In this document: piece by piece, positions 16,328 through 32,867 of the stretch | How positions within the stretch are numbered: position 1 is the stretch's first letter | How the letters are laid out: every line of letters starts with the position of its first letter | NCBI GenBank assembly: GCA_022801435.1 | Contig: JAAWSG010000021.1 | Location: 1-34,843, forward strand | DNA: 34,843 nt | Source of the DNA: Lawsonibacter sp. | Lineage (GTDB): Bacteria; Bacillota; Clostridia; Oscillospirales; Oscillospiraceae | Reading direction: 5' to 3' | The notes under the pieces: model-generated | What the model was told of the DNA's origin: nothing | The model's input: the letters and a program-made list of their open reading frames with translations, nothing else | Databases searched by the model: none | Translations under genes and position numbers: made by a program

Positions 16328-17482
16328 TCAAATCATCTCGATAAAGGCGGCGATGCGGGTGGTGAGCTGGCCCACGTCGGCTTTGGAGTAGTCCGTGTCC
16401 ACCGCAAGGAACGGAATTCCCATCTCGCCGGCCAGCCTTTTGATCTCATAGCGCTCCACGGTATAGGGGTGGCAGGTCTGAAGCTCGATTTCCAAAATGC
16501 CGTCCACCTTGAACTCCTCCACCAGGCCGGGGAGCAGCTCCATACGCTGGGTATTGGGGGTCATCACCGCGCAGCCGATGTTCAGATAGCGCCGGGCGAT
16601 GGCGGACATGATATCCTCCGCCTCGGTGTCCACCAGGTAGCGGGTGGGCTTGATGCCGCCGCAGTTTTCAAAGCAGACCACCACGCCGCCGTTCTCCTCC
16701 ACAATTTTCACCGTCTTCTCCAGCACGCCGCCGATGGGACAGCCGGTCACCAGGATGCGCTTCTGCCCGGCGGGAATGGGGCGCTTGCCGGCCTCATAGT
16801 CCGCCTTGAGCTGGGCGGTGAGGCCGGTGAGCTTTTGCAAATTGGCCTGCAGGTCAAAGCTGAACCCCAGCCCATCCATCAGCTGGTACAGCCCCAGGCC
16901 GCTGAAGGGGGGCGGGTCCAGCTTTTGCAGCTCCATCAGCGCGGTCCGGGCCTGGCGCAGCTGGTTGCGCACCCTGGCGGCCTGGCGCAGGGCGTCATCG
17001 GTGATGGTGACCTGGAACTTCTCCTCCAGGGCGGCACGGAAGCGGTGCAGCTCCTTGGTCCACATCTCCAGGGCGTAGCTCCGGTCGATCCCCTGGGGGA
17101 GCTGGAGGATATACACGTCCTTCATCCGCCCCAGCAGCTCATACATCTTCTTTTTGCCGTCGCAGGTGGTCTCCCCCACGATCAGGTCGGAGAAATAGGT
17201 GTAGGGGCAGGTGTCCGACACGGCAAAGCCATAGCTGGACTTAATCAGCGGGCACAGATTTTTGGGCAGGTCCCGCTCGGCGGCGGGGATGGGCTCGGGG
17301 CTCATGCCGCACAGGCTGACGGGATGCACTCCGGCGGCGTCCATAAGCTCGCAGGGGGTAAAGGTGCAGAAGGTTCCGGCAATGTGCCCTCCCGCCTCCT
17401 TGATGGCCTTGGCCCTCAAAAACCCGTCCTTGCGGGCTTGGGTAAACGCTTCAAATTGAGCAGGCAGCTGATATTCGCTCAC
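16328..17482 (-). CDS. Double-cubane-cluster protein (2-hydroxyacyl-CoA dehydratase subunit D superfamily)
   Basis: The GTG at 17482, 9 nt after AAGGAGG, gives 384 residues. The fold family is that of HgdB/FldC-type dehydratases, but the compact single subunit, the adjacent activator and the signature NLCPLIKSSYGF-14 residues-VGETTCDGKKKM point to double-cubane cluster proteins (DCCP), which hold an [8Fe-9S] cluster. Cysteines at 39, 44, 58, 77, 92 and 107 are candidate ligands. Such proteins reduce small substrates such as acetylene in vitro; the natural substrate is not known. It is translated after its activator (36-bp gap). A divergent paralogue lies at 18451. Confidence 0.85.
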   Translation of the reverse strand: MSEYQLPAQFEAFTQARKDGFLRAKAIKEAGGHIAGTFCTFTPCELMDAAGVHPVSLCGMSPEPIPAAERDLPKNLCPLIKSSYGFAVSDTCPYTYFSDLIVGETTCDGKKKMYELLGRMKDVYILQLPQGIDRSYALEMWTKELHRFRAALEEKFQVTITDDALRQAARVRNQLRQARTALMELQKLDPPPFSGLGLYQLMDGLGFSFDLQANLQKLTGLTAQLKADYEAGKRPIPAGQKRILVTGCPIGGVLEKTVKIVEENGGVVVCFENCGGIKPTRYLVDTEAEDIMSAIARRYLNIGCAVMTPNTQRMELLPGLVEEFKVDGILEIELQTCHPYTVERYEIKRLAGEMGIPFLAVDTDYSKADVGQLTTRIAAFIEMI

Positions 17483-17518
17483 AACGAAAAACCTCCTTAT
17501 ATTTGTCTGGCGCAATGG

Positions 17519-21554: not shown

Positions 21555-22379
21555 CTATGCCCCGCGCTTCCAGCGCAGCAGCACATCCTCCAGCACCAGC
21601 ACCAGACGGTCCATCATAAATCCCACGATCCCGGCTATAAACATATAGGCCATAATCGCGGTGGTATCCAGCTGAACCTGTGCCTCGTGGATCAAAAATC
21701 CAAAGCCGGTGGTGGTCGCAATGAACTCCGCTCAGACGACCGCGCCCCAGGCGCTGCCAATTGATACGCGAAGCCCGGTGATCAGACCGGACATGCTGGA
21801 GGGGAACACGACATCGGTGATGGGGGCCAGTCCCTTGGCTCCCATGCTGCGCACCGCGTTGTAGTAGTCCGGGCTGATCTCCTGCACCGCCGTCACGGTG
21901 GCCAGCAGCACATTGAATGTCGCCTGGAACGCAATGATAAAGATGGTAGGGCCGTCCCCCAGGCCGAACCACACCACCGCCAGCGGGACCCAGCTCATGG
22001 TGGGGATCTGGCGCAGGGAGTTGATAAAGGGGGCGATGGCATACATCACCAGCTTGGAAAATCCCATGGCCATGCCGATTGGAAAGCCGATCACAGCCCC
22101 CCAGAACACGCCCACGGTCACCCGGCGCATGGTAATCGCCACACTGCGCCAGACATACGCGTCCCCCACCGCGTACCCCATCTTACCCAGGATACCCTCG
22201 ATCATGGGGAACTTGAACGAGTCGTCCACCCAGTGGGCCGCCACATACCAGATCACAATGATACAGGCCAGGGACGCCGCCAGATTGCCATAGTAGGACA
22301 CCCAGCTGCGCACGGCTCTGCGCACACGGCCGTTCCGTTTTTCATCTGCCCGGTTTTGTTGATACTGCCTGTCTGTCAT
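21555..22379 (-). CDS. saoP: ABC transporter permease with predicted selenocysteine (copy 2)
   Basis: A binding-protein-dependent permease with about six membrane segments, 274 residues if UGA at 21732-21734 is read as selenocysteine (residue 216). Without read-through the product stops there, yet the same frame continues for 58 more residues of normal permease sequence (AEFIATTTGFGF..., final helix, RWKR) to a TAG. The EAA loop is present (YYNAVRSMGA). The neighbouring paralogue has UGA at the same place with the same AEFIAT following. The gene symbol rests on my memory of the NCBI SAO family naming. This pair forms the channel with the ATPase at 23837. Confidence 0.85.
21700..21712 (-). promoter_or_regulatory. 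Weak SECIS-like hairpin after the UGA of permease copy 2
   Basis: CCA/UGG pair around CCGGCUU starting 20 nt after the UGA. Only 3 bp, but the loop GG lies at nt 25-26, the same place as in copy 1. On its own this would not be convincing. Confidence 0.35.
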
Positions 22380-22519
22380 TCCTGTTTGCTCACATCCTTT
22401 TGCCGCCGTTTACTGCCGGTTGACGGTCTTCATCCCTGCCCAGGGCGGGGACGGAACGCCTGTTCCCGAACCGGGAACTGTCCATTGCGGCAGCGCGCAG
22501 GTCAATTCCTGCAAGCCGC

Positions 22520-23347
22520 CTATCGCTTCCAGCGCAGCAGCACGGTCTCCAGGAGCAGCACAAATCTGTCCTGTGCAAATCCAAATATGCCCACCAGAGC
22601 CATATAGGCCATGACCGTGTCCGTCCAAAGATGGGACTGGGCATAGCTGAGGATATAGCCGAAACCGTCGCTCGTCGCAATGAACTCTGCTCACATAACT
22701 GTCATCCAGGCGCCGCCCAGAGCCATCCGCACACCGGTGATGAGGCCGGAGGTACAGCCGGGGAGCACCACATCGACCACAACGTCCCTGCTGCTGGCCC
22801 CCATGCTGCGCACCGCGTTATAAAAGTCGGGGCTGATATCCTGGATACCGGCAATGACATTGAGAATCACAACAAACACGGTGCTGAACGTGATGATAAA
22901 GATGGTGGGGCCGTCCCCCAGGCCGAACCAGATGATGGCCATGGGGACCCAGGCTGTAATGGGGATCTGGCGCAGGGCGTTGATATAGGGCGCCAGGGTG
23001 CGCATCAGCCAGGGAGAAAAGCCCATCAGCACCCCCACCGGGAAGCCGATCAGCACCGCCAGCCCCACTCCCTTGAGGACCCGGACCAGGGTAATCAGGA
23101 AGTGATGCCAGAAGTAGGGGTCTGCCAGCGCCTCAAAGAACCGGGCCAGCACGTCCTCAAGGTAGGGGAAGGTGATAATGTAGTTGATTTTGTGGGCCGC
23201 AAAGTACCAGACAATCAAAATCAGAGACAGACAGGCCGCAAACGCGAGATAGTAGGCCGCGGAGCCAAACATGCGCCTGAAATTCCGCCGGTCACCAATC
23301 CGCACAGAGGTCTGCATTCGCCGGATATCTCGTTCACCTTGGTTCAT
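22520..23347 (-). CDS. saoP: ABC transporter permease with predicted selenocysteine (copy 1)
   Basis: This 275-residue permease is a paralogue of the next gene downstream. The in-frame UGA (22691-22693, residue 219) lies in GGAWMTVM-U-AEFIATSDGFGY, where taurine/nitrate-type permeases normally have a small residue before AE. The frame continues 56 residues to TAG and ends RWKR like its copy. Three features favour selenocysteine over decay: both copies share the position, the downstream sequence is conserved, and another clear selenoprotein lies in the same operon. The residue sits in the fifth or sixth membrane segment, where a selenol could touch the passing substrate (inference). A 77-bp gap separates it from the DsrE-like gene. 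Confidence 0.86.
22657..22672 (-). promoter_or_regulatory. SECIS-like hairpin after the UGA of permease copy 1
   Basis: AGCGA pairs with UCG(G)CU, one G bulged, giving a loop CGGUU with the GGU expected of bacterial SECIS elements. It starts 19 nt after the UGA, within the usual spacing. Confidence 0.6.
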
Positions 23348-23424: not shown

Positions 23425-23760
23425 CTACAGTGTAATGACCTGGTCAATATTGGCGCCCGCCAGGGCGGTGTAGACATTGGGGAAGCATCCGATGCCCGCG
23501 GGCGCGATGAGCTTGTCGTCGATCTCCCGCTGGATACAGCAGCGGTCACAGGCCATCAGCAGCATTCCGGTCTTCTCCGCCAGGGCGGACAGGCGCTTGG
23601 CAATGTCGTTCCCCTCCTGCAGCATGTAGCAGTTGTCAAAGAAGAACATCATGCCTGCCACCTCGGCCACATGGGTGCCCTTCTCCAGCTGGGGAATAAT
23701 CATGTTCTCCAAAATCTCGCGGGCGTGCTCCGACTCAAACAAATACGCTACCTTCATCAT
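23425..23760 (-). CDS. saoD: DsrE-related Cys-rich protein
   Basis: This 111-residue cytoplasmic protein has a DsrE-like alpha/beta fold (VAYLFESEHAREILENMI start, GMLLMACDRCC strand-loop). Cysteines at 44, 71, 74, 75 and 92 include the ACDRCC cluster, well suited to carry sulfur, selenium or a soft metal. AGGAGG lies 5 nt before the ATG. It sits between the ATPase and the first selenocysteine permease. It fits the 'DsrE-related protein SaoD' family as I remember it; the role is inferred. Confidence 0.78.
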   Translation of the reverse strand: MMKVAYLFESEHAREILENMIIPQLEKGTHVAEVAGMMFFFDNCYMLQEGNDIAKRLSALAEKTGMLLMACDRCCIQREIDDKLIAPAGIGCFPNVYTALAGANIDQVITL

Positions 23761-23836: not shown

Positions 23837-24766
23837 TCAGCGTCTGTGCCGGGGAAGGATGTTTTTCCGCTCCTTCTTTGGAGCTGAGGTGGGCTTCTCA
23901 GGCCCTAAAATGGTGCGGCCCTCATGCAGGCCGGCGCCGGTCTCCACATTTTCGATGAACTTCATCAGGTCCTTGTCCTCTTCGTTGAAAACCTCGCCGT
24001 TCAGCGCCTGCTTCAGCACCTCGGTCAGCTGGTCCATATACTCGTGATACCGCACGCTGGCGCGGTCCCGGGGCCGGGGCAGGTCAATGCGGACATCGGC
24101 CATAATGCGCCCGTAGTCCCGGGACATGACCACCACCCGGTCGCTGAAATAGATGGCCTCGTCCACGTCGTGGGTGACCATCATAGTGGTCACCTTCCGC
24201 TGCTGAAGCATGGCCTCCATCTGGATCTGGAGCAGCTTGCGCATCTGGAAGTCCACCGCGCCCAGGGGCTCGTCCATCAGCAGGATCTTGGGCTCGCAGG
24301 CCAGGCCGCGCAGAATCGCCACGCGCTGCTTCATGCCGCCGGACAGCTCATGGATATAGCTGTTGGCGCTCTCCTCCATCTGGGCGATGGCCAGCAGCTC
24401 TTGCAGTCGCCGCTCCCGCTCCGCCCTGGGGACCCCCTGCTTTTTCATGGGATACATAATGTTGTCCTTCACCTTCAGCCAGGGCAGCAGCGCGTAGTTT
24501 TGAAACACGAAGGCCCGGTCAGGTCCGGGCTTGGTCACCGGACTGCCGTTGACCAGGACCTGTCCCGAGTCCGCGGCCTGAAACCCGGCGATGATGGTCA
24601 ATGTGGTGGTCTTTCCGCAGCCGGAGGGGCCCACCAGACTGACAAATTCCCCCTCGTTCACCTCGAAGGAGATATCCCGCAGCACCAGCTTGCGCTCCCT
24701 CTTGTTCCCCATTCCGGCGAAGGATTTTGTAATTCCTTGTACTGAGATTGACATATTGGCGTCCAT
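23837..24766 (-). CDS. saoA: ABC transporter ATP-binding protein
   Basis: This 309-residue ATPase of the nitrate/sulfonate/taurine (SsuB/TauB) type has Walker A GPSGCGKT (46-53), a Q-loop in VFQNYALLPW (88-97), signature LSGGMKQR (141-148), Walker B ILLMDEP (161-167) and the H-loop THDVDEA. A C-terminal extension of about 60 residues goes beyond the core and is basic at the end. It should power the two selenocysteine permeases. A second in-frame ATG 12 nt inside (24754) is also a possible start. Confidence 0.93.
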   Translation of the reverse strand: MDANMSISVQGITKSFAGMGNKRERKLVLRDISFEVNEGEFVSLVGPSGCGKTTTLTIIAGFQAADSGQVLVNGSPVTKPGPDRAFVFQNYALLPWLKVKDNIMYPMKKQGVPRAERERRLQELLAIAQMEESANSYIHELSGGMKQRVAILRGLACEPKILLMDEPLGAVDFQMRKLLQIQMEAMLQQRKVTTMMVTHDVDEAIYFSDRVVVMSRDYGRIMADVRIDLPRPRDRASVRYHEYMDQLTEVLKQALNGEVFNEEDKDLMKFIENVETGAGLHEGRTILGPEKPTSAPKKERKNILPRHRR

Positions 24767-24806: not shown

Positions 24807-25625
24807 CTAGGACGGTCCCGCTTCCGGCAGATACAGGAATTTCAGCCTGACCTCCTGCCAGAACGCGTCGTCCATCCCGTACAGGGACTGTATGGTATCC
24901 TTGTCGTTCAGGGCCTGGGCTGTCTCGTTGTAGTACTTGAGGAACACCTGAAACTGCGGGGTGTCAATAATATCGTCCCGCACCACCAGACAGTAGGATA
25001 CATAGTCCTGGCCGGTCACTCTGGTATAGCGGTACTGGGGCAGCTGAAAGGCCCGGGCGATGTCCATCACCGCCCCGTCCACCTGGCGGTCCTCAAAGGC
25101 GTAGAGGATTGAGGTAGCAGAGACCTCACGGATCTCATCCACCTCCGGGTACTCCTCCCGCACCAGCTTGGCCAGGTGCTCCCGCTTCATGGGGATGGCC
25201 ATGGTTTGGAGCTCCGACGGGTCCTTCCAGCAGCCCAGCACCTCGCCGTTCATCACCACGGGGCCATAGATGGAAAAGCCCTCGTTCTGGTTGACGATTG
25301 CCATGGAGATGTGGGTGCAGTAGAAGCCCAGGTCGGTATCCCGGGTCAGCAGAGACCACTGTCCGGCATTGGAGCAGCAGTCAATAAACAGATAGGAGTC
25401 CAGATCCGCCGCCTGGTCCGGGTTGACAATGCTGTTGTGTCCGTCCTCCTGGCAGCGCTTTATGATCTCTTCCATCATCCGGCCGGTGATGTCGTCGCCA
25501 ACCCCCACTACCAGCTGTGCCTGCGTCTGTTCTCTGGACGCCGCCCACGGGACCGCAAACGCCAGCAGCAGGCCCAGCACCAGGGCCAGCGCAAGAAAGA
25601 GCGCCCCCCGCTTGGTCGCATCCAC
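24807..25625 (-). CDS. saoB: ABC substrate-binding protein, Cys-rich, membrane-anchored
   Basis: A GTG start gives 272 residues with one N-terminal hydrophobic segment (LFLALALVLGLLLAFAV) as signal or anchor. The binding fold then follows (VVGVGDDITGRMMEEII, KDPSELQTMAIPMKREHL, EDRQVDGAVMDIARA). Cysteines cluster in the first lobe: RCQEDGH, FIDCCSN, FYCTH and LGCW. A paired Cys next to the ligand cleft is uncommon in this superfamily and fits a thiophilic metal or organometal ligand. It starts 22 bp after saoC, upstream of the ATPase. The symbol follows the SAO naming as I recall it. Confidence 0.78.
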   Translation of the reverse strand: MDATKRGALFLALALVLGLLLAFAVPWAASREQTQAQLVVGVGDDITGRMMEEIIKRCQEDGHNSIVNPDQAADLDSYLFIDCCSNAGQWSLLTRDTDLGFYCTHISMAIVNQNEGFSIYGPVVMNGEVLGCWKDPSELQTMAIPMKREHLAKLVREEYPEVDEIREVSATSILYAFEDRQVDGAVMDIARAFQLPQYRYTRVTGQDYVSYCLVVRDDIIDTPQFQVFLKYYNETAQALNDKDTIQSLYGMDDAFWQEVRLKFLYLPEAGPS

Positions 25626-25647: not shown

Positions 25648-26169
25648 TCAGCAGCAATCTTCCATATTTTCCCCGAAGAGGTTGATCAGCTCCCCGTCAA
25701 TTATGCGGTAGATGGCGTATCCCACCTCTCCGTCTTTCTCTCCGGTCAGGACAAACTCCAGGGGCGGTTCCCGGTCCATCTCAAAAAAGCGCAGCGCCTG
25801 GTTCTCAATGGGAGCCGGGGTGGGCTCGGTGATGTCATAGGTCCCGTCCCCCCGGTTGATGAGGGCCACCATCCAGTTTTTCAGGGTCTCCTCCGGGTTG
25901 TGGTAGATGACCACCAGCTCGTCCAGCCCGTCGTCGGTCAGGTCGTCCTCGCAGGCCAGCAGGATCTCCCGGCCGGGGATTTGGGCGTTATAGTACTGGA
26001 GGGCGGGGTGGCTGTCCTCCACCGGCTCGGCGTACTGGATGCCGTTGTTGGGACTGTTCCGCTTCTCCTCCTCCTTGGCGTATATGTACTGGCGCAGGAA
26101 AAAGGCCCCCACCAAAACGGCCAGGACCAGCAGCGGCCCGGCCCAAAAGGGCATGGTTCGTTTTTTCAT
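25648..26169 (-). CDS. saoC: Membrane-anchored protein ending in Cys-Cys
   Basis: This 173-residue protein has an N-terminal membrane helix (about residues 10-28) and a soluble exported domain. The domain contains acidic, calcium-site-like DDLTDDGLDELVV and ends in MEDCC followed directly by a TGA stop. A C-terminal Cys-Cys is the hallmark of what I remember as the 'Cys-Cys-COOH (seleno)protein SaoC' family. In this copy both are cysteines. A free C-terminal vicinal thiol pair can hand soft metals on, as in mercuric reductase. The gene lies 20 bp after the CSCG permease. Confidence 0.8.
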   Translation of the reverse strand: MKKRTMPFWAGPLLVLAVLVGAFFLRQYIYAKEEEKRNSPNNGIQYAEPVEDSHPALQYYNAQIPGREILLACEDDLTDDGLDELVVIYHNPEETLKNWMVALINRGDGTYDITEPTPAPIENQALRFFEMDREPPLEFVLTGEKDGEVGYAIYRIIDGELINLFGENMEDCC

Positions 26170-26189
26170 GGTCTCACCGCCGCCGCGTC

Positions 26190-27287
26190 TCAGGCCGCGC
26201 TCTGCCCGGCCTTGCGCAGCTGGCTGTGCAGAGCCGATACGCCGGCATACAGGGCATAGCCCACCAGGACCGCGGTACACAGGTATTGCAGCCACTCCGG
26301 CCCGGTGTGAATCAGGGTGTTGGCCATGGAGATGGAGTTGGTGGCGGCGTCAAAGTCCAGCACAGGCACAAAGCCGGGAAAAATCTGGTTGGTGATATAG
26401 CCCACTATGTTGGAGATGACCACCACCAGGCCGAAATACATCAGCATGGCCCGCTTCCCGATGGTGCGGTTGATGGTGATGAGCTCCGAGATGTTGGTGG
26501 CGGCGCCCGCCATCAGGAAGGTAATCGCCACCCCGGGGGCCGCGCCGCTGGCCACAATGGCCGCGATAAAGGGGATGTGACCCACCGCGCATACGTACAT
26601 CACCGCCGCCACCACCGTAATCCCCATCAGGGAGACAAAGCCGGGGTTGCCCAGGTAGCGCTGAATGGCCGTCTGAGGGACAAGGCTGAAGATCAGCGCC
26701 GCCGTCAGCATCCCCAGCACGGTGTACTTGCCGATCATCAGGGCCAGCTCACTGAAGGACCAGCGCAGGCCCATCAGGACCCGCCCCAAAAAGGAGGGCT
26801 GTTCCATCTGGAGCTGAATCCGCTTGGGCGCGCTCTCGTCCCGCTTCAGATAGAGCTCCTCCCCGGCAAAGCGGTTGGCCGCAAGGCCGATGATCATGGG
26901 GGCGGCAAACCCGGTGATCACATACACCGCGGTGATCTTCGGGCCCAGCAGGCCGTAGCTGAGGATGATTGCGATGGGATTTATCATGGGCGACGAGGTC
27001 ATAAACGCCAGGGTGGGGCCGAGATACGCCCCCGAGTGGTACAGCCCGATGCCCAGCGGGATACTGCCGCAGCTGCAGATGGGAATGAGCATTCCGGTCA
27101 GGGTGGCCCACAGGATGCCCCGGACCCGGGTCGTGCCCAGACTGCTGTTATGCAGCACCTCGGGCGTCAAAAACTCGTGCAGGCATCCGGCCACAATCAG
27201 GCTCAGCATCATCCAGGAGGACGCCCCGTTGAGCATATTGACCGCAGACCTCAAAACCGCCCACAAAAACTCCAAAAACGCGGTCAT
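26190..27287 (-). CDS. saoE: ArsP/UPF0718-type permease, predicted efflux
   Basis: This 365-residue protein with about eight to ten membrane segments belongs to the DUF318/ArsP permease family. It has the family signature IPICSCGSIPLGIGLY with C71 and C73, and a second block AVGHIPFIAAIVASGAAPGVAITFLMAGAATN. ArsP members export trivalent organoarsenicals, and related ones are linked to other thiophilic compounds. Its ATGA overlap with the selenocysteine thioredoxin-like gene couples the two, consistent with the redox protein serving the permease. Matches SaoE as I recall it; direction and substrate are inferred. Confidence 0.85.
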   Translation of the reverse strand: MTAFLEFLWAVLRSAVNMLNGASSWMMLSLIVAGCLHEFLTPEVLHNSSLGTTRVRGILWATLTGMLIPICSCGSIPLGIGLYHSGAYLGPTLAFMTSSPMINPIAIILSYGLLGPKITAVYVITGFAAPMIIGLAANRFAGEELYLKRDESAPKRIQLQMEQPSFLGRVLMGLRWSFSELALMIGKYTVLGMLTAALIFSLVPQTAIQRYLGNPGFVSLMGITVVAAVMYVCAVGHIPFIAAIVASGAAPGVAITFLMAGAATNISELITINRTIGKRAMLMYFGLVVVISNIVGYITNQIFPGFVPVLDFDAATNSISMANTLIHTGPEWLQYLCTAVLVGYALYAGVSALHSQLRKAGQSAA

Positions 27288-27541
27288 GCCGACTTCAACG
27301 CCTCCTCAAACGCCTTTCGCACTGCGCTCTTGCTCAGCTTGGCCACTGCCTTGCTCTCGTTGACGACCAGCAGACTGGAGGACACCGCGCCGTACTTGGC
27401 CACGTAATCCGTGTCCACACCGGAGCGGTAGACCACCACCTCCACCTGGCCCTCGTACTCTTTTGCCAGGGATTTGACCAATCCCTCATAGACCTCGCAT
27501 CACCCGCAGGCGCTGATGTACTCAATACAAGGATGCCTCAT
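27284..27541 (-). CDS. saoT: Thioredoxin-like selenoprotein with CGUC motif
   Basis: The ATG at 27541 opens a frame interrupted by UGA at 27500-27502 (codon 14), reading ISACG-U-C. Thioredoxin-like folds have C-x-x-C here, so the motif is C12-G13-U14-C15. The 85-residue frame continues with a normal small thioredoxin/glutaredoxin-like fold (KSLAKEYEGQVEVVVYRSG, SLLVVNESKAVAKL). A perfect 7-bp hairpin with loop GGUCA begins 14 nt after the UGA. An automated caller would start downstream at an internal codon and lose the active site. It is the first gene of the ten-gene operon and overlaps saoE by 4 nt. Confidence 0.92.
27468..27486 (-). promoter_or_regulatory. Bacterial SECIS element of the thioredoxin-like selenoprotein
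   Basis: AGGGAUU pairs fully with AAUCCCU around the loop GGUCA. The stem begins 14 nt and the loop 21 nt after the UGA. A short stem with GGU at the top of the loop is what SelB recognises in bacteria, as in E. coli fdhF. Confidence 0.85.
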
Positions 27542-31571: not shown

Positions 31572-32867
31572 ATGTATCACAATGTCAACACCAAGCGTAT
31601 CCTGGCCCAAAACACCTTCGCCAGCAACGACACCTGGACCACCGGCCTGAACAACAACGACCTGCTGGTGGGACCCGCCGGCGCGGGCAAGACCCGGGGC
31701 TATGTGATCCCCAACCTTCTCCACACCGGGGAAAACCTGATTGTCGCCGACACCAAGGGGAACCTGCGCCGGCTGTACGGAACGTACCTGGAGGAGAAGG
31801 GCTACACCGTGATGCACCTGGACTTTACCGACGTGGCCAACACCCCCTGGGGCTACAATCCCTTGACCTACATCCGGCCCTGCCGGGACGCCGGGGTCAA
31901 CCAGGACGGGGACTTCTACAGCGAGCAGGACATCAAAAAGGTGGCCCAGGCTGTCTGCCCCTGCAAGGATTTCAAGGACCCCTTCTGGGACCTGGCTGCC
32001 CAGATGTACCTGGAGGCCATCCTCCTCTTCCTCCTGAACCAGCTGCCCCAGGAGCAGCACAACCTGTATGAGGCGTACACCTTTCTCTCCCGGATGGGGA
32101 GCGAGGAGCTGGAGGATATCATCGAGGAGGAGCGCATCACCCATCCCCACAGCGCCTTCGCCCGGAAGATTGGGATGATCCGGCAGAACAAGCAGGCGGA
32201 AAAAATGGACTCCAGCATCAAGGGCATCCTGGCCCGGCATCTGGACGTGCTGGCCAACTCCGGGACCCGCCGGATGTTCCGCATGGAGCGGCAGGTGGAC
32301 CTGGAGAGCTTCCTCAAGGGCAAGACGGCGCTGTTCCTGTCGGTCAGCGACTCCGACCGCAGCCAGGACGCTTTGGTGAACCTCTTCTATACCCAGGCCC
32401 TTCAGTACCTCATGGCCGCCGCCGACCGCCAGCCGGACAGCCGCCTGCCCATCCCAACGCGCTTCATCCTGGACGACTTCAGCACCAACACGGTGATTCC
32501 GGAGTTCGACAAGCTCATCTCGGTGATCCGGTCCCGGGAGATCTATGTCAGCCTCATTGTCCAGAGCCTGTCCCAGCTGGAGGATCTCTACGGACAGGCC
32601 AAGGCCCAGACCATTATCAACAACTGCGACCACTGCCTGTACCTGGGCGGAACGGACACCCAGACGGCCCGGTACTTCGCTGAAAAATTCAACTGCCAGC
32701 TGTCCACCGTGCTCAACCTCCCTTTGGACAGCGCCTTCCTCTTCACCAGAGGCAGCCAGCCCAAACGGGTCCAAAAGTACGAACTGAACCGGGATGACAT
32801 CTACCGCAGCCTGAACCGGCTCCAGCGCGGGGGGCAGACCAATTTCGGAACGGAGTGTGCCATATGA
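31572..32867 (+). CDS. VirD4/TraG-like ATPase without membrane anchor
   Basis: This 431-residue protein is of the type IV coupling-protein (VirD4/TraG, TraM-recognition) family. Walker A is GPAGAGKT (34-41), the ADTKGNL block follows, and Walker B is FILDDF with D301-D302 where most relatives have LLDEF. SLSQLEDLYG and LGGTDTQTARYF are typical of the clostridial VirD4-like subfamily. It lacks the usual two N-terminal membrane helices and starts almost at Walker A. No relaxase, VirB4 or other transfer gene is near. Good ribosome site (AAGGAGG). Its neighbour is a ClpP peptidase, and the downstream gene overlaps by ATGA. Confidence 0.88.
   Translation: MYHNVNTKRILAQNTFASNDTWTTGLNNNDLLVGPAGAGKTRGYVIPNLLHTGENLIVADTKGNLRRLYGTYLEEKGYTVMHLDFTDVANTPWGYNPLTYIRPCRDAGVNQDGDFYSEQDIKKVAQAVCPCKDFKDPFWDLAAQMYLEAILLFLLNQLPQEQHNLYEAYTFLSRMGSEELEDIIEEERITHPHSAFARKIGMIRQNKQAEKMDSSIKGILARHLDVLANSGTRRMFRMERQVDLESFLKGKTALFLSVSDSDRSQDALVNLFYTQALQYLMAAADRQPDSRLPIPTRFILDDFSTNTVIPEFDKLISVIRSREIYVSLIVQSLSQLEDLYGQAKAQTIINNCDHCLYLGGTDTQTARYFAEKFNCQLSTVLNLPLDSAFLFTRGSQPKRVQKYELNRDDIYRSLNRLQRGGQTNFGTECAI

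Follow-up and report, generated by a model that had tools for sequence, protein, structure and literature searches.

The Sec-assisted organometallic (SAO) system and its ABC permease, SaoP, were reportedly described by Haft and Gwadz in 2023. By sequence and by fold, the closest solved structures are those of CmpB and NrtB, the permease components of CmpBCD and NrtBCD, which import bicarbonate and nitrate in cyanobacteria, but both permeases have an alanine in the column that carries selenocysteine (Sec) in SaoP, and they act on other substrates. Passages of a 2026 review list SaoP, SaoB, SaoC, SaoX, SaoT, and SaoL among selenoproteins, name the SAO operon with a citation of Haft and Gwadz 2023, and note that the roles of the SAO proteins need further work (PMC13188914); the same 2023 work appears in the reference list of PMC10418091. 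Because SaoP is a catalogued selenoprotein family within a catalogued multi-selenoprotein operon, predicting Sec in one of its members is no surprise. Family and operon are already known, and the less usual part of the locus described here is a tandem pair of SaoP genes, a modest variant; our literature search found no paper on such a pair, although one may exist.

The window is a stretch of 34,843 nucleotides from Lawsonibacter sp. (GenBank assembly GCA_022801435.1, contig JAAWSG010000021.1, positions 1 to 34,843). An earlier note on this DNA had pointed to two tandem ABC permease genes, each interrupted by a UGA in frame (codon 216 in one, 219 in the other) directly before the motif AEFIAT, and this is confirmed when the TGA is read through; both frames stay open past the UGA and end, as described there, in RWKR (RWKRGA in copy 1) and a TAG. 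The two genes and their UGA codons are as follows.

21555..22379, minus strand: SaoP copy 1, ABC permease, 274 aa with predicted Sec216; NF040733, 291.2 bits (cut-off 295); Pfam BPD_transp_1
21732..21734, minus strand: UGA codon 216 (predicted Sec) of SaoP copy 1, read from the DNA
22520..23347, minus strand: SaoP copy 2, ABC permease, 275 aa with predicted Sec219; NF040733, 295.4 bits (cut-off 295); Pfam BPD_transp_1; structure modelled
22691..22693, minus strand: UGA codon 219 (predicted Sec) of SaoP copy 2, read from the DNA

The SaoP family profile, NF040733, is the best NCBIfam match of both copies and covers nearly their whole length; copy 1 lies just below the family cut-off, and in a six-frame search the two copies score 289.8 and 285.1 bits, both below 295. 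The next best NCBIfam matches are the taurine, nitrate, and alkanesulfonate permeases TauC (120-128 against a cut-off of 342), NtrB (106-112 against 209), and SsuC (94-125 against 347), for all of which the window genes fall far short. Both copies carry the BPD_transp_1 domain, and the fold modelled for copy 2 matches permeases of ABC type I importers. The locus thus resembles known SaoP loci in its family match, in a column restricted to U or C, and in the partners SaoA, SaoB, SaoC, SaoD, SaoE, SaoT, and SaoX, but it differs in having two diverged tandem copies with a UGA in each. At 51% identity, the two proteins share the UGA column, and the same is true of both copies in three related genomes, so its retention is more than chance.

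Each of the seven partners scores over its own cut-off, and together with neighboring genes they are arranged as follows.

16328..17515, minus strand: double-cubane-cluster reductase; NF040772, 492.3 bits
17519..18292, minus strand: acyl-CoA dehydratase-type activase, adjoining the double-cubane protein; TIGR00241, 225.9 bits
18451..19653, plus strand: second double-cubane-cluster reductase; NF040772, 447.3 bits
19717..19995, minus strand: putative Se/S carrier-like protein, adjoining SaoX; PF11823, 67.1 bits
20029..21387, minus strand: SaoX, substrate-binding protein (SsuA-like), Cys form; NF040735, 397.3 bits (cut-off 300)
23425..23760, minus strand: SaoD, DsrE-related protein; NF040732, 186.3 bits (cut-off 169)
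23837..24766, minus strand: SaoA, ABC ATPase; NF040729, 406.5 bits (cut-off 360)
24807..25625, minus strand: SaoB, second substrate-binding protein, Cys-Cys form (DCCS); NF040727, 260.9 bits (cut-off 140)
25648..26295, minus strand: SaoC, Cys-Cys-COOH protein; NF040734, 155.3 bits (cut-off 80)
26190..27287, minus strand: SaoE, efflux transporter; NF040736, 509.5 bits (cut-off 325)
27284..27541, minus strand: SaoT, thioredoxin-like protein with the motif CGUC; NF040730, 97.1 bits (cut-off 65)

SaoT is the third UGA gene of the cluster, with its UGA (predicted Sec14) at 27502-27500. In the window and its kin this codon is the third position of the CxCC motif (CGUC or CAUC); SaoT genes at L069 (5254-5487) and L078 (4955-5191) have the UGA in the first motif position (UPGC, UPSC). 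Unlike the SAO system as catalogued, the window has SaoB, SaoC, and SaoX in Cys forms; SaoC ends in MEDCC with UGA as its stop, and it likely starts at an ATG at 26169. The MerB-like lyase SaoL gives a weak match (79.4 bits against a cut-off of 140) on another contig of the window genome (G000:C52:25816-26097), which is 81% complete. Nine of the 32 SaoP genomes were tried for SaoL and three have it over the cut-off, so the SAO system does not always include it; it lies over the cut-off on the SAO contig in G975 (C32:3763-4242), G771 (C25:152677-153138), and G700.

Homologues of the double-cubane reductase or the activase adjoin SAO genes in 18 of the 26 SAO loci of at least 16 kb, which suggests a functional link between the two sets of genes. 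Within these 26 loci, which include some near relatives of each other, the UGA form is found for SaoP in 20 of 26, SaoT in 10 of 25, SaoB in 4 of 25, SaoC in 3 of 26, and SaoX in 0 of 26. SaoP, as the SAO site most often in UGA form, is thus a good place to ask what selenium does in this system, and selenium within a transporter channel is unusual.

The UGA codons of both SaoP copies are very probably decoded as Sec, as judged from comparative sequence evidence. Among 44 SaoP genes, taken as phmmer hits scoring at least 150 bits and with the residue in the UGA column left free, the column before AEFIAT holds U in 33 and C in 11, with no other residue in any. At the DNA level, with a search pattern admitting only U or C, there are 42 distinct genes (31 U and 11 C); the counts leave aside L016 and L017 (the window) and L065, L066, and L087 (apparently the contig of L026). 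In relatives outside the Sao family this column holds I in one and A in two others. The window genome also codes for the Sec machinery, with selA (588.5 bits), selB (378.9 bits), and tRNA-Sec, the selC product (69.3 bits), all on contig C88 and selD (388 bits) on contig C105. On two of the points that the earlier note had singled out for checking, the homologous column and the sel genes, its prediction stands, and the two together support Sec at the shared column well.

Selection on the two sides of the UGA can be compared among the four genomes with tandem copies. In 12 comparisons dN/dS is 0.039-0.222 past the UGA and 0.040-0.161 before it, with somewhat higher values past than before in four of the six copy-1 comparisons, and selection past the UGA is about as purifying as that upstream. 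It is very improbable that the UGAs are true stops, making the genes truncated permeases or decaying copies with the tail as a remnant. Such a reading could point to the absence of a clear SECIS in either window copy and to a decoding call that is drawn from sequence, but it has to contend with the low dN/dS past the UGA, a UGA in the same column across four genomes and two paralogues, full-length Cys homologues, a family profile that matches almost from end to end, and the complete Sec machinery. In two homologues, L047 and L056, there is one more TGA in frame, early in the aligned stretch and beyond the limits of the family match; the match itself contains one TGA.

Selenium-free reading of the UGA as another amino acid, such as Trp or Cys, has a similarly minimal probability. 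The open frame is compatible with it, and nothing further was found in its favor; against it, at least five window genes (SaoX, SaoA, SaoC, SaoE, and SaoT) end at UGA as an ordinary stop, in agreement with what the earlier note had said of UGA in the window, Trp is absent from the column in all 44 genes, and selA, selB, tRNA-Sec, and selD are all present.

A selB match over the cut-off is found in all 32 SaoP genomes, a set that leaves out the genomes behind L025 and L027-L032, and in 263 of 396 genomes of a phylum sample, a comparison that ignores kinship. Cys-form SaoP is present in 11 of these 32 selB-positive genomes, so the presence of selB has no predictive value for U. Among the genomes listed for the phylum sample, a list from which 110 genomes with no match are absent, strong selB matches occur in none of five in the window's family or order (its own genome excluded) and in one of eight others in the class; the congener G975 has selB. 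Sec use may thus have a patchy distribution in the lineage of the window.

Evidence for an RNA signal downstream of the UGA is more limited. The GG that had been noted at nt 25-26 after the UGA is indeed at that position in both copies, but it is not evidence for a SECIS, since it belongs to a glycine codon (+9) that is also present in all 11 Cys genes. The stem of 5 bp with its GGUU loop that had been drawn for copy 1 was not found as an unbroken stem, and the GGUU belongs to copy 2. Around the GG, the longest unbroken stem has 3 bp in copy 1; in copy 2 it has 4 bp and a 7-nt loop, and five pairs with one bulge can be drawn there by hand but are not chosen by the folding program. Compared to synonymous shuffles, the window copies have z scores of -0.37 and +0.54 and fold no better than the shuffles. 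Given the glycine codon, the short stems, and the shuffles, the GG and hairpin are not supported as independent evidence of Sec.

At the level of the SaoP family there is some sign of a hairpin after the UGA, as judged from predicted folds, although the window copies show none. The mean z score against synonymous shuffles is -0.84 for the 31 U sites and +0.57 for the 11 Cys sites (Mann-Whitney p 0.0005, with rows that are related to each other). When 17 of the 31 distinct U sites are folded to a consensus, three pairs result with no two-sided changes, and thus no covariation. Codon conservation after the UGA is a weaker sign at the RNA level, from a statistic that ignores kinship: where two U genes have the same residue, the codon is identical in a fraction of 0.59 at positions +1 to +8 and 0.43 in the 20 codons before the UGA, and the corresponding fractions for Cys genes are 0.46 and 0.39. 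Scanning the window against Rfam with gathering scores gave no match, which says little on bacterial SECIS elements.

The tandem pair, with a UGA in both copies and the same order of Sao genes, is present in four genomes (those of the window, of L025, of L026, apparently the same contig as G975:C32, and of L027); the 22 other SAO loci of at least 16 kb have one SaoP each, and G862 has two SaoP genes on separate contigs. In a tree of SaoP genes, which leaves out L055, copy 1 and copy 2 each form a supported (starred) group, and the distribution of U and C needs at least three changes. The one SaoP of L041 groups with copy 2, although weakly (91/56), and very long branches lead to the outgroup.

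The simplest reading is that the tandem SaoP genes replace a homodimer with a single heterodimer, and we infer that the two copies probably pair in one importer. SaoP1 and SaoP2 would then be the two halves of a channel served by the ATPase SaoA and the binding proteins SaoX and SaoB, and the assembled channel would carry a Sec at the corresponding place in each half. The presence of two binding proteins also fits two homodimeric importers that work separately, with SaoX serving one and SaoB the other, but this arrangement is unlikely, as SaoX and SaoB are both present in 21 of the 22 loci with a single SaoP, and one SaoA was found in the window cluster. The tandem form offers a natural test, in which two diverged channel halves both keep the UGA.

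A predicted model of copy 2, made with 38 sequences, has a mean pLDDT of 90.1 and replaces an earlier two-row model (pLDDT 49.7) that was discarded as poor; its best fold matches are the CmpBCD and NrtBCD permeases, with TM scores by query of 0.72-0.78. Residue 219 is in a helix spanning residues 186-224, five residues before the helix end. In the topology of this class of ABC permease, that helix end faces outward, and the Sec would therefore lie close to the outer mouth, at the docking site of the binding protein. With the UGA decoded, Sec in each copy would lie toward the end of the transmembrane helix next after the cytoplasmic coupling loop. In an alignment of 35 SaoP genes and three relatives (L055 and L056 being left out of the references), the only Cys among the invariant or nearly invariant columns is that of the Sec column itself.

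It is quite possible that the putative selenol contacts the ligand, and near the outer mouth of the channel Sec may bind a soft metal, metalloid, or organometal ligand or pass it on. In such a scheme, the Sec of SaoP would be a link in a chain of Cys and Sec proteins comprising SaoB, SaoP, SaoT, SaoC, and SaoE. It is conceivable that the inserted Sec instead has a redox or structural role with no substrate contact, for example by gating or protecting the channel through a selenenylsulfide or diselenide, in keeping with the thioredoxin-like UGA gene SaoT in the cluster and the modelled location of the residue five from the end of its helix. The lack of a second Cys among the conserved SaoP columns argues against such a role, although a diselenide across the dimer is conceivable. 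Taking ligand contact further, to a heterodimeric importer whose two selenocysteines, near the outer mouth of one channel, form a joint site for a ligand of the soft-metal or organometal kind, and whose permeases diverged for the cargo of the two binding proteins, is rather doubtful.

The occurrence of SaoP was counted in several genome sets (E up to 1e-60), which overlap and of which three include the window's genome. It is present in 1 of 394 genomes of the order, 9 of 398 of the phylum, and 2 of 64 of the genus, and is found in 16 of 113 genomes in the class of G771 and 9 of 63 in the order of G556. A type IV secretion coupling protein (PF02534) is encoded near the cluster at 31572-32867 on the plus strand, and, with SaoP in 2 of 64 genomes of the genus, a mobile element may have carried the cluster.
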